This document shows, piece by piece, positions 8,654 through 33,763 of a DNA stretch of 64,000 nucleotides; the stretch's first letter is position 1; each line of letters starts with the position of its first letter. The DNA is from Candidatus Jordarchaeales archaeon (lineage in GTDB: Archaea; Asgardarchaeota; Jordiarchaeia; Jordiarchaeales; Freyrarchaeaceae), in NCBI GenBank assembly GCA_038889235.1, contig JAWAHN010000001.1, positions 695,459 through 759,458 of the forward strand. Reading direction: 5' to 3'. Made by a program: the position numbers and the translations under genes. The notes under the pieces are model-generated. The model was given only the letters and a program-made list of their open reading frames with translations. It searched no databases and had not been told where the DNA came from.

Positions 8654-10126
8654 TTAACCCTTGACGACACCTATTGGTCTAAGTTTGGCTACTAGGGATG
8701 CAATGCCTACCTTATGGGAAACGTCGACAACCAAATCGACGTTTTTATACGCATCTGGCGCTTCTTCACTTATGACAACTATACTGGCAGCCTCTATGAG
8801 TATACCTGATTTTTGAAGCTCATTCTTGATTTTTTCACCCCAAAACTTCTTCTTTGCGTCAGCTCTGCTAAGCCGCCGGCCTGCACCGTGAGCCGTTGAA
8901 CCGAAACTTAGTTCCATGGATTCAGGGTTTCCTCGTAAGACATAACTAGCAGTACCCATGGTTCCAGGTATGAGAACCGGTTGCCCAATGTCTTTGTACT
9001 TTGACGGTATATCTGGATGACCTGGCGGGAAAGCTCTAGTAGCGCCTTTTCTGTGGACACATAGGACTTTGCTTTCGCCATCAACACGGTGTCTTTCAAG
9101 CTTAGCGATGTTGTGAGCCACATCGTATACTACATGTATTCCAAGGTCTTCGGAAGAAGAGGAGAAGACTTTTTCAAACGATTCGCGCACCCAGTGTGTT
9201 ATGCACTGCCTGTTTGCCCAAGCAAAGTTTGCAGCCGCCGCCATCGCCGCCAAGTAATCTTCACCCTCCCTGCTTTTTCCTGGAACAGCCGCCAGCTCTC
9301 TGTCTGGAAGCGAGATACCATACTTTCCCATTGCGTGCTCCATTATCTTTAAATAATCGGAGCATACCTGATGACCTAAACCACGTGAACCGGTATGTAT
9401 TAGTACTGCTATCTGTCCCTCAAATAATCCCATTTTCTCGGCTGCCCTCGCATCATAAACTTGCTCAACATATTGTATTTCAAGGAAGTGGTTACCGCTA
9501 CCTAGTGTCCCGAGTTGAGGGGCACCACGATCCTTTGCCTTAGAGGAGACCTTGCTCGCATCAGCACTCTTAAGACACCCCTCCTCCTCACAAAATATTC
9601 GGTCTTCATCCCAACCGAAGCCTTTTTCGATCGCCCAATTCACACCGCTTTCAAGTACTTCATTTAGTTCAGAGTGAGAGACTCTAATCTTGCCCTCAGA
9701 ACCCACACCACTAGGAATCTCTCTGAATAAAACTGCTAGTAACTCTTTGAGCTTGGGAATAACTTCTTTCTTCGAAAGATTTGTCCTGAGAAGACGAACA
9801 CCACAATTTATATCGTAACCAACCCCTCCTGGAGAAACCACACCATCCTCTTCAAAGTCGACTGCTGCAACTCCGCCTATGGGGAAACCATATCCTTGAT
9901 GAGCATCAGGAAGAGCTATGGAGTTTTTCTGGATTCCCGGTAGGCACGCTACATTCATAGCTTGAACTAATGTTTGGTCTTTCTTCATTCCATCGAGAAG
10001 TTCCTCATTCGCGAAAATTATGGCCGGAACACGCATACACTTCTTGGCATCCTTCGGTATTTCCCATATTAGGTTAGATCTTTTTTTCAGAGGAACCTGG
10101 GACACGCCCACCACCCTTCTTTCCAT
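8654..10126 (-). CDS. rtcB: tRNA-splicing RNA ligase RtcB
   Basis: GTP- and Mn-dependent RNA ligase that joins 2',3'-cyclic phosphate to 5'-OH ends, the archaeal ligase for exons released by the BHB splicing endonuclease. Metal and catalytic motifs are present: PDAHQGYGFPIGGVAA, GGVGYDINCGVR (Cys/Asp ligands), LGTLGSGNHFLEI, HTGSRGLGHQV, YDVAHNIAKLE, and the guanylylated-His region AHGAGRRLSRA. The start ATG at 10126 agrees with relatives; an upstream GTG at 10168 would add 14 residues. It is of special interest here because the window contains 16 probable tRNA introns and one mRNA intron that need this enzyme. Confidence 0.95.
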   Translation of the reverse strand: MERRVVGVSQVPLKKRSNLIWEIPKDAKKCMRVPAIIFANEELLDGMKKDQTLVQAMNVACLPGIQKNSIALPDAHQGYGFPIGGVAAVDFEEDGVVSPGGVGYDINCGVRLLRTNLSKKEVIPKLKELLAVLFREIPSGVGSEGKIRVSHSELNEVLESGVNWAIEKGFGWDEDRIFCEEEGCLKSADASKVSSKAKDRGAPQLGTLGSGNHFLEIQYVEQVYDARAAEKMGLFEGQIAVLIHTGSRGLGHQVCSDYLKIMEHAMGKYGISLPDRELAAVPGKSREGEDYLAAMAAAANFAWANRQCITHWVRESFEKVFSSSSEDLGIHVVYDVAHNIAKLERHRVDGESKVLCVHRKGATRAFPPGHPDIPSKYKDIGQPVLIPGTMGTASYVLRGNPESMELSFGSTAHGAGRRLSRADAKKKFWGEKIKNELQKSGILIEAASIVVISEEAPDAYKNVDLVVDVSHKVGIASLVAKLRPIGVVKG

Positions 10127-10313
10127 TTTAACCTTTTTCCATTTTTTAAAAGTTATGTAGACGCTCACTACCGCGTATAGTAACTAGACAAGGATTGATA
10201 AACTGTGGAGAAACGTGGGAATTTTTGAGGATACCCGTGTAGGAGACATTACGAGTGAGGATAAATAAAAGTATCGCGCTTCAAAAGGAAGGTAAATATG
10301 CGATGCGGACAGC

Positions 10314-15600: not shown

Positions 15601-18009
15601 TTGTCAAGGAATGAAAGATTTGTACTTTGGTTCGAAGAAGTAGGAAAGGAAGACGTGGCACTAGTGGGCGGAAAATGCGCGAATTTAGGAGAACTAATGA
15701 CGAAAGCAAAGGTGCCGGTCCCGCCAGGGTTCGCTGTGACAACACATGCTTTCAACTACTTCATTACCAAAACGAAAGTGAAAGATAAAATATTCAAAAT
15801 ACTTGAAGATATTGACGTCAAAGACTTGAAGCAGCTAGAAGAAGCCTCAAGAGAGATGAGGAGACTAATTGAGGAGGCGCGAATTCCCGAAGAAATAGAG
15901 ACAGAGATCCTGAATGCTTACGACGAATTAACTAGGAAAGTTGGTAGAGAACCTCTTGTAGCTGTTCGTTCCAGCGCCTCGGCAGAGGATTGAGTTGGCT
16001 TCCCTCAATTGCCGGGCGCCAGCTTTGCTGGGCAGCAAGAAACGTATTTGAATGTTTGCAGAAGCGAGCTTTTAGAGAAGATTAAGAAATGTTGGAGCAG
16101 CCTTTACACCCCTAGGGCAATAGTATACAGAAAAGAGAAGGGCTTTAAGCACGAACACGTTTCGATAGGTGTTGCTGTACAAGAAATGGTTGATGCGAGA
16201 TCTGCAGGGGTGATGTTTAGCATACACCCAACTACTGGTGAGAGGAATAAGATTCTCATAGAGGCAAGCTGGGGGCTCGGTGAGGCTGTTGTGAGCGGAG
16301 CAGTAACGCCCGATACGTACATAGTAGACAAAAACACTCTTGAAATACTTGAAAAACATATTGCTTCTAAGAAAGTTGAGTATGTAAGGGATCCTAAAAC
16401 TGGAAAGACAGTACATTTAGAGGTGCCTAAGGAAAGACAGGACGCACCCGCTTTGAGTAACGAAGAAATAAAGACTCTGGCAAAATACGCGCTTCAGATA
16501 GAGAGACATTACGGTGTTCCTCAAGATATTGAATGGGCTGTGGATAGAGACGGAAGGATTTTTATACTGCAAGCAAGACCTGAAACTGTGCACTCGAAAG
16601 GCGTGCTTGTAGAGCAAAAACCGGTGGAAAGTGTGAGTGGAATAGAAGTTTTAGTGAGAGGGTTGCCGGTCTCCCCGGGGATAGGTGCTGGTAAAGTTAA
16701 GGTAATTCTTGACGTCAAAGAAATTCATAAAGTTCAGGAGGGGGACGTTCTTGTTACCAGGATGACAACGCCTGATTGGGTTCCAGCGATGAAAAAAGCG
16801 GTCGCGATAGTTACAGATGAGGGGGGTTATACCTGTCATGCAGCAATAGTGTCTCGTGAATTGGGTATCCCATGTGTTGTGGGTACGGGGAACGCAACAA
16901 AAGTGCTTGCGAACGTAGACGCTGTGACTGTGGATGGTAGTAAGGGATTGGTTTACCGTGGAATAGTAGAGAAGGTTGAAAAAGCTGAGACACCAACCGT
17001 CGTCACAACCGCTATGATTCCGACTGCGACCAAAATATTTGTTAACCTTTCAATACCGGAGATCGCCGACAAAGTTGCAAGCGAAACTATGGCCGACGGT
17101 GTTGGACTTCTCAGAGCGGAGCACATGATGATAACTATAGGTAAACATCCTAGAAAGCTCATAGAAGAAGGTGGAGAAAGCCTAATGATTGAAAGGTTTG
17201 CAGAGGGCATCAAAAAAGTTGCTGAAGCATTTTATCCTAGACCCGTAGTGTATAGGTTCTTAGACTTCAAACCAGACGAATTCTTAGCTTTGGAAGGAGG
17301 AGAAAAATACGAGCTTGAAGCGGGACACGTTGGACCAAACCCAATGATAGGATACAGAGGCCAATTTAGATATGTCAAAGAGCCAGACATATTCAGGTTG
17401 GAGTGCAGAGCGGTGAAGAAAGTCAGAGAGGAATACGGGCTGAAAAATGTCTGGGTTATGGTGCCATTCGTTAACACAGTGGAAATTTTCAGAGAAGTTA
17501 AAAGAATAATGAAAGAAGAAGGGCTTGACCGAGAAAAGGATCCTGACTTTAAGCTATGGATAATGGTTGAGGTTCCGAGTAGCGTCTTTCTCATAGACAA
17601 GTTCTGCGAAGAAGGCATAGATGGAATATCATTTGGAACCAATGACCTCACAATGCTAGTGCTGGGAGTGGACAGAAATGATGCTTCGGTTCAAGAAGTT
17701 TACGACGAACGTAATTTAGCAGTACTTAGGGCGATAGCATACACTATAAAGATATGTAGGAAGTACGGGGTAACTACTTCTGTGTGTGGGCAAGCACCCA
17801 GCGTGTATCCGGACTACTTGGAGTTCCTAGTGAGACTGGGAGCCACTTCGATAAGTGTGAATCCAGACGCTGTGAAAAGAACACGTGAAATGGTAGCAAG
17901 AATAGAGCAGCAAATCCTCATGGAAAAAGCTCTAGGCATCAAACCTAGAGTCAAGATAGGGAAATACTTCCTCGAGGAAGTGGAGTTCTGGAAGCTGGCA
18001 AACGACTAA
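15601..18009 (+). CDS. ppsA: Phosphoenolpyruvate synthase, interrupted by an 18-nt mRNA intron
   Basis: Converts pyruvate, ATP and water to PEP, AMP and phosphate for gluconeogenesis. The coding sequence is join(15601..15990,16009..18009), giving 796 aa, a normal length. Exon 1 holds the ATP-grasp N-terminus ([22 protein letters not shown]). Exon 2 continues [15 protein letters not shown], then the phospho-His domain ([21 protein letters not shown]) and the PEP/pyruvate barrel ([21 protein letters not shown]). Without removal of 15991-16008 the frame hits TGA after residue 130, exactly inside the most conserved ATP-binding motif. The TTG start follows GGGGTG. The gene is otherwise undamaged for 2 kb, arguing against a pseudogene. 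Confidence 0.9.
15991..16008 (+). other. BHB-type archaeal intron in ppsA mRNA (18 nt)
   Basis: Predicted pre-mRNA intron TGAGTTGGCTTCCCTCAA. Fold: outer helix GCGCC-(U)-CGGCA (15974-15984) pairs with UGCCG-GGCGC (16010-16019). The central 4-bp helix is GAGG (15985-15988) with CCUC (16003-16006). Three-base bulges are AUU (15989-15991) and AAU (16007-16009). A 3-bp inner stem (GAG with UUC) closes a 5-base loop. Cutting after the second base of each bulge, the archaeal splicing endonuclease rule, removes exactly these 18 bases and joins GAT to TTG, restoring the family motif Asp-Leu-Pro. The structure and the protein alignment independently give the same boundaries. Confidence 0.9.
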
Positions 18010-33636: not shown

Positions 33637-33763
33637 TGGTGCAGGGGGTGGGATTTGAACCCACGCAGGCTTACGCTCCTCATTCGGATCTACGCCACGC
33701 GGGCCTCAGCCGCGTTCCTTTGACTTAGCCCGTTATTGCTACGTCTGGCTCGGACACCCCTGC
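33637..33763 (-). tRNA. tRNA-Leu(GAG) with two introns
   Basis: Read on the minus strand: acceptor GCAGGGG/CCCCUGC, discriminator A and encoded CCA, anticodon stem CGCGG/CCGCG and loop CUGAGGC (anticodon GAG, no intron at 37/38). D-loop intron 33725-33744 (20 nt): AGCC/GGCU helix, bulges AGA and AAG, inner CGU/ACG. Variable-arm intron 33671-33689 (19 nt): GCGU/GCGU with terminal G-U pairs, bulges AGA and AAG, inner UCC/GGA. The product is 88 nt with D-loop GAGCCAGGUCAAA and variable arm U-GGC-GUAG-GCC-UGC. Confidence 0.92.

Follow-up and report, generated by a model that had tools for sequence, protein, structure and literature searches.

The closest described counterparts of the interruption analysed here are the introns of 16 to 44 nt in the cbf5 gene of Desulfurococcales and Sulfolobales (Watanabe 2002; Yoshinari 2006; Yokobori 2009, PMC2738675). 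Both these introns and relaxed bulge-helix-bulge (BHB) motifs have been associated with a hetero-oligomeric form of the splicing endonuclease EndA (PMC2738675). Crenarchaeal cbf5 has stood as the single accepted archaeal gene family with a spliced coding sequence, and a paper of 2020 named it as the only earlier BHB intron in an mRNA besides its own case, which lies in a 5' UTR (PMC7714728). Freyarchaeia and Atabeyarchaeia are reported to have introns in 92 to 95% of their tRNA genes (PMC11291895); by keyword, tRNA introns are the only ones mentioned in that study, which lists PEP synthase for Freyarchaeia and makes no mention of an intron in it. In animals, the ligase of XBP1 mRNA splicing is RtcB, which is also named in the abstract of a further source (PMC8718801).

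Here we describe a protein gene, ppsA, in a genome of Candidatus Jordarchaeia (Asgard archaea), whose coding sequence is interrupted by 18 nt that are almost certainly an archaeal pre-mRNA intron, predicted to be cut out by EndA and sealed by RtcB so that full-length PEP synthase is made. The gene lies in a stretch of 64,000 nucleotides (the window), and its features are collected in the table together with those found elsewhere in the genome. The in-frame TGA falls within the conserved ATP-binding motif, and the frame is restored directly behind the insert with no residue lost. When the insert is removed, the PEP synthase matches positions 2-784 of the family model TIGR01418 (784 positions) in one stretch at 997.7 bits, against a curated cut-off of 739.75 bits. 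The unspliced gene yields two TIGR01418 pieces that abut at 125/126, with nothing lost or doubled. Translation of an unspliced message would end after 130 residues, inside the ATP-binding domain. As ppsA is the only gene of the assembly in which we found a PPDK_N domain, PEP synthesis from pyruvate by that route would depend on splicing, if the gene is used. Splicing could possibly serve as a control point of ppsA expression, although this is speculation.

Features of the ppsA locus, of the splicing context within the window, and of further inserts in the same genome
Feature	Position	Strand	Remarks
rtcB, 3'-phosphate RNA ligase predicted to seal the exon junction	8654..10168	-	only match in genome
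ppsA exon 1	15601..15990	+	TTG start assumed; 130 codons; ends ...RSSASAED; ORF 15601-15993; TIGR01418 positions 2-125
Outer helix, 5' arm	15974..15984	+	GCGCC, bulged U (15979), CGGCA; computed fold
BHB centre, 5' strand	15985..15988	+	GAGG, paired with CCUC 16003-16006; computed fold
5' bulge	15989..15991	+	AUU; predicted cut 15990/15991; computed fold
18-nt predicted BHB intron, TGAGTTGGCTTCCCTCAA	15991..16008	+	first codon (15991-15993) is the in-frame stop TGA; junction common to five other sequences
Inner stem-loop	15992..16002	+	GAG, loop, UUC (CUU in the computed fold); 3-bp inner stem; computed fold
BHB centre, 3' strand	16003..16006	+	CCUC; computed fold
3' bulge	16007..16009	+	AAU; predicted cut 16008/16009; computed fold
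ppsA exon 2	16009..18009	+	runs to the stop; TIGR01418 positions 126-784
Outer helix, 3' arm	16010..16019	+	UGCCG-GGCGC; computed fold
tRNA gene	33640..33763	-	extra segments in the D-loop region and 3' of the anticodon arm; Rfam
EF-2 insert, 29 nt	C1:445935-445963 (outside window)	-	inside DTPGHVDF; homology comparison, BHB
cbf5 insert, 29 nt	C1:835887-835915 (outside window)		splits the catalytic Asp codon between letters 1 and 2
DnaG (archaeal primase) insert, 34 nt	C1:972079-972112 (outside window)	-	BHB splicing would give GAIFGQLEGLLG
Ras-like GTPase insert 1, 44 nt	C1:996133-996176 (outside window)		P-loop
Ras-like GTPase insert 2, 30 nt	C1:996247-996276 (outside window)		before the GIDIFSK segment

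The region around the insert folds as a BHB whose outer helix consists of ten pairs and one bulged U, and this structure is the minimum-energy fold of positions 15968-16032: forcing the BHB costs 0.0 kcal/mol. Cutting between the second and third bulge bases on both sides removes exactly the 18 nt and leaves a protein reading ...SASAED-LPGASF... across the junction. The same rule gives the junction that the protein requires not only in ppsA but also in cbf5 and EF-2 (see below). An initial annotation, drawn from the letters of the window, had placed the stop and the resumption of the frame correctly to the base, as judged by the open reading frames and the TIGR01418 match. Its ten-pair outer helix with one bulged U and its GAGG/CCUC centre were reproduced by our computation, and its claim that a cut after the second bulge base on each side frees 18 nt and restores Asp-Leu-Pro was borne out by the join at TIGR01418 positions 125/126. 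A fold this good arose at the site in about 4e-5 of trials when exon codons were replaced by random synonymous ones and the intron was shuffled, and in about 0.5% when the intron alone was shuffled between the real exons. The z-score of the fold energy was -1.8 for the 65-nt piece and -3.1 for a tight 48-nt piece. With the motif conserved in relatives, as described next, a chance origin of the ppsA BHB is untenable.

Comparison with relatives that carry or lack the insert had been put forward as a check, and it favours an intron. The named relatives, all of them metagenome-assembled, were Jordarchaeum JNZ_1113, isolates QC4, RPF2 and QZM_A3, and Freyarchaeota SQRJ_82. Among the eight class genomes, the gene occurs in six and is interrupted at the identical place in every one of them; the insert can be read across in five, and in the sixth (G002) a run of N begins just inside it. 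This run, 33 bases long in the genome of isolate QC4 (L011, L035), represents an assembly gap or a masked stretch. A sixth readable sequence with the intron at the same junction came from contig L045 (JAUQYY010000037.1), which is filed under Sigynarchaeota SQRJ_179 and has the gene order of Freyarchaeota SQRJ_82; a binning error or mislabelling is likely. No insert was found at the ppsA junction in the outgroups (Odinarchaeota, Baldrarchaeota and others), and in a tree the intron-bearing genes form a single clade (support 99/97). The six inserts measure 18, 20, 28, 29, 29 and 30 nt and are unlike in sequence. Relatives encoding the insert in sense codons would have spoken for a protein segment, and we found the opposite: four of the six inserts (20, 28, 29 and 29 nt) have lengths not divisible by three and break the frame.

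All six inserts nevertheless fit a BHB with 3-nt bulges, the centre pairing at 4 of 4 positions in five of them and at 3 of 4 in G007, where an A.C mismatch occurs. Pairing between the exon arms amounts to -19.6 kcal/mol in the host gene and ranges from -14.0 to -21.8 kcal/mol over the six intron-bearing genes, compared with -2.7 to -11.0 kcal/mol in 14 intronless homologs that encode nearly the same peptide, so the flanking codons appear to have been chosen for pairing. The free fold prefers a shifted register over the canonical BHB in G001 (by 0.6 kcal/mol), G007 (4.6) and L045 (3.2), and in G005 and G006 a small shift of the inner stem gains 1.0 kcal/mol. Across the six sequences, 96% of cells pair, as against 45-53% when the partner strand is slid. 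Formal covariation is weak: in a set of six, most exon pairs do not vary, and in one pair both partners have changed. The evidence at ppsA therefore consists of conserved position and pairing rather than of covariation statistics. We also noted that the intron-bearing PEP synthases all read RSSASAED (positions 15976-15984 of the window and the corresponding sites of relatives), whereas RSSATAED stands at this place in the close intronless homologs displayed. The U of the Ser codon takes part in the outer helix of Freyarchaeia-type ppsA, and the protein may thus have been shaped by RNA pairing.

Sequencing or assembly error deserves mention since the named relatives are metagenome assemblies, yet its probability is negligible: separate assemblies agree on the junction and differ in the sequence and length of the insert, and the relatives already refute it. 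Decay into a pseudogene, to which an in-frame stop within an essential motif might point, is just as negligible, given that this is the sole PPDK_N gene found in the genome, that the rest of its frame is intact throughout, and that the interruption is common to the class. Slightly more weight, though still very little, falls to gene fission, in which a separate protein would begin at the TTG at 16009 and assemble with the product of exon 1. A TTG does open exon 2 in every readable case, and neither half shows damage. The break, however, falls inside the ATP-binding motif with no residue lost, added or overlapping across the class; in G001, exon 1 runs on into exon 2 in another frame; and fission does not predict a conserved BHB with exon-arm pairing at the break.

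Translational recoding would leave the insert in the message and have the ribosome deal with it, by inserting selenocysteine or reading through at the TGA, or by bypassing the insert altogether. Jordarchaeia have been reported to recode UGA as selenocysteine (PMC9723677). The TGA of ppsA is not conserved, however: orthologs have TAA or frameshifts in its place, so readthrough cannot explain the other inserts, and a selenoprotein was rejected on the same grounds. Bypassed gaps of tens of nucleotides are known elsewhere, but here the take-off codon (GAT or GAC) does not match the last triplet of the gap (CAA, CTC, CTA or CCA). We regard recoding as very improbable, more so than fission. A self-splicing intron of group I or II was discarded on size, as inserts of 18-30 nt compare with a catalytic core of hundreds of nucleotides; a search against Rfam gave no intron match in the window.

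Excision of a BHB intron by the tRNA-splicing enzymes, the reading we prefer, calls for an endonuclease and a ligase, and the genome encodes both. Besides rtcB, it contains two EndA paralogs (L032:1192-1782 and L033:1474-2061). One is of the catalytic type, with the YEHGPGIDHAP and RKK regions kept, and has archaeal EndA chains as its nearest solved structures (3p1z and 3ajv; best, 3p1z_B); the other has no catalytic-type His and matches beta-subunit models weakly. The presence of two paralogs suggests an EndA of the heterotetrameric type, the one linked to relaxed BHB motifs and cbf5 introns, in which both would presumably join in one complex. The nascent ppsA transcript would fold into the BHB, and EndA, probably a heterotetramer of the two paralogs, would cut it at 15990/15991 and 16008/16009, between bulge bases 2 and 3. 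RtcB would then ligate GAU to UUG, and the ribosome would read Asp-Leu-Pro and continue to full-length PEP synthase (pyruvate, water dikinase). We infer cleavage, ligation and use of the spliced ppsA message; the proposal of the initial annotation that the splicing endonuclease removes an 18-nt BHB intron gains support from the fold, the relatives and the enzymes in the genome. The one tRNA gene that Rfam detects in the window has two extra segments that are probably tRNA introns, and ARAGORN reported no tRNA in the 64 kb.

The initial annotation must be amended in that the ppsA intron is not an isolated case: the same genome also has predicted introns in cbf5, EF-2, DnaG and a small GTPase. 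These did not emerge from geometry. A strict BHB scan that covered 97% of the assembly (2.08 Mb) returned 783 geometric joins of two open frames, compared with 625-687 in controls with the wrong bulge size; after filters for coding potential and start codons, ppsA had one of the three best helix scores, and no other candidate was convincing. The strict scan missed cbf5 and EF-2, in which the first outer pairs are broken, and its failure to report other introns therefore meant nothing. Relaxed scans gave 2604 clusters for 3/3 bulges and 2550 for 2/2 bulges. With chance hits so close to control level, BHB geometry is unusable as a detector in this genome unless it is combined with homology.

A homology survey was more informative. 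Of 317 ORFs taken from 400 kb of G010, an Asgard relative, 226 had matches in the host genome, and among these EF-2, DnaG and the GTPase (three of the 226) were found interrupted. This suggests, as a very rough figure, that about 1% of conserved genes are interrupted. Other breaks were set aside: at about C2:434889 the match had been read past the natural end of a gene, at about C2:361450 adjacent genes appear fused in the other genome, and at about C2:115617 and C3:260890 there were plain frameshifts with no insert. The frameshift at about C2:115617 (minus strand) breaks a reductase-like match and may reflect a sequencing error, a pseudogene or frameshifting.

In cbf5, an insert is present in all eight genomes of the class (29-35 nt) at the published site of the crenarchaeal intron. 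Its BHB has the centre CACU/GGUG or CACU/AGUG, and its bulges read AG^A and AA^A. Three genomes of another Asgard family (G021, G028 and G041; L278, L284 and L285) have inserts in this Asp codon as well, and G052 has one of 17 nt on a second contig with cbf5 (L287); the cbf5 intron may be old within the Asgard archaea. In G066, G011 and G083 (L282, L283 and L288) the corresponding part of cbf5 contains stops or gives split matches. Three members of the genus have the EF-2 intron; the fourth, G003, lacks it, and its DNA reads GTAGACTTTACC, the spliced form. The EF-2 intron is also absent from Freyarchaeia-type G005-G007. The DnaG insert occurs in the host genome (G000) and, shorter, in G001, and is absent from G004-G007. 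Removing both inserts from the Ras-like GTPase gives a full small-GTPase match, and the predicted splices of cbf5, EF-2, DnaG and the GTPase each restore a full family match.

In total, the host genome contains at least six BHB introns in five genes (ppsA, cbf5, EF-2, DnaG and, with two, the GTPase), and Jordarchaeia thus appear to be a hot spot of archaeal mRNA splicing. The pattern probably reflects a small but general protein-only system of pre-mRNA splicing, in which the tRNA-splicing enzymes would remove these introns, with introns gained and lost within the genus. Because the cbf5 intron lies exactly where that of Crenarchaeota does, it may have been inherited from a common ancestor of Asgard archaea and Crenarchaeota. 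Most of the six introns lie in catalytic or nucleotide-binding motifs. Precise removal may be enforced at such highly conserved sites, or insertion may have been targeted to them, but with six introns the pattern could also be an effect of ascertainment, breaks being easiest to see in conserved stretches.

If this reading is true, a single Asgard genome combines a class-wide intron in a core metabolic gene with no fewer than four further interrupted genes. Splicing of mRNA by the tRNA machinery would then be more than the oddity of a single gene, and would take place in the group nearest to eukaryotes. Genes of this kind will be broken or truncated by standard gene callers, a practical concern since phylogenies and metabolic reconstructions draw on EF-2, Cbf5, DnaG and PEP synthase. 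With three congeners that have the EF-2 intron and a fourth that lacks it, the gain and loss of archaeal mRNA introns becomes directly testable.

In the open-access literature we found no earlier report of coding-sequence introns in Asgard archaea or in ppsA; subscription papers and bioRxiv preprints lay mostly outside that scope, so that priority is not certain. HVO_1309 of Haloferax volcanii resembles ppsA in that its mRNA is cut at BHB sites by EndA, but its intron is in the 5' UTR (PMC7714728), whereas that of ppsA is in the coding sequence. Archaeal tRNA introns, notably those of Freyarchaeia and Atabeyarchaeia in the study cited above (PMC11291895), share with ppsA the presumed enzymes, the BHB rule and the lineage; they interrupt tRNA genes, whereas the ppsA intron interrupts a protein gene. 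The XBP1 and HAC1 messages of eukaryotes likewise undergo protein-only mRNA splicing, a likeness of mechanism by analogy only. They differ from ppsA in being cut by IRE1 and regulated by stress. The nearest parallel is the crenarchaeal cbf5 intron, which, like the one predicted in ppsA, is short, sits in a conserved coding motif, adopts a BHB or relaxed BHB, is cut between bulge bases 2 and 3 and goes with a hetero-oligomeric EndA. The predicted ppsA intron differs in gene (PEP synthase), phylum (Asgard) and site; the mechanism is the one known from cbf5, ppsA is a new instance of it, and the more notable finding is that a single Asgard genome has a whole set of such introns.
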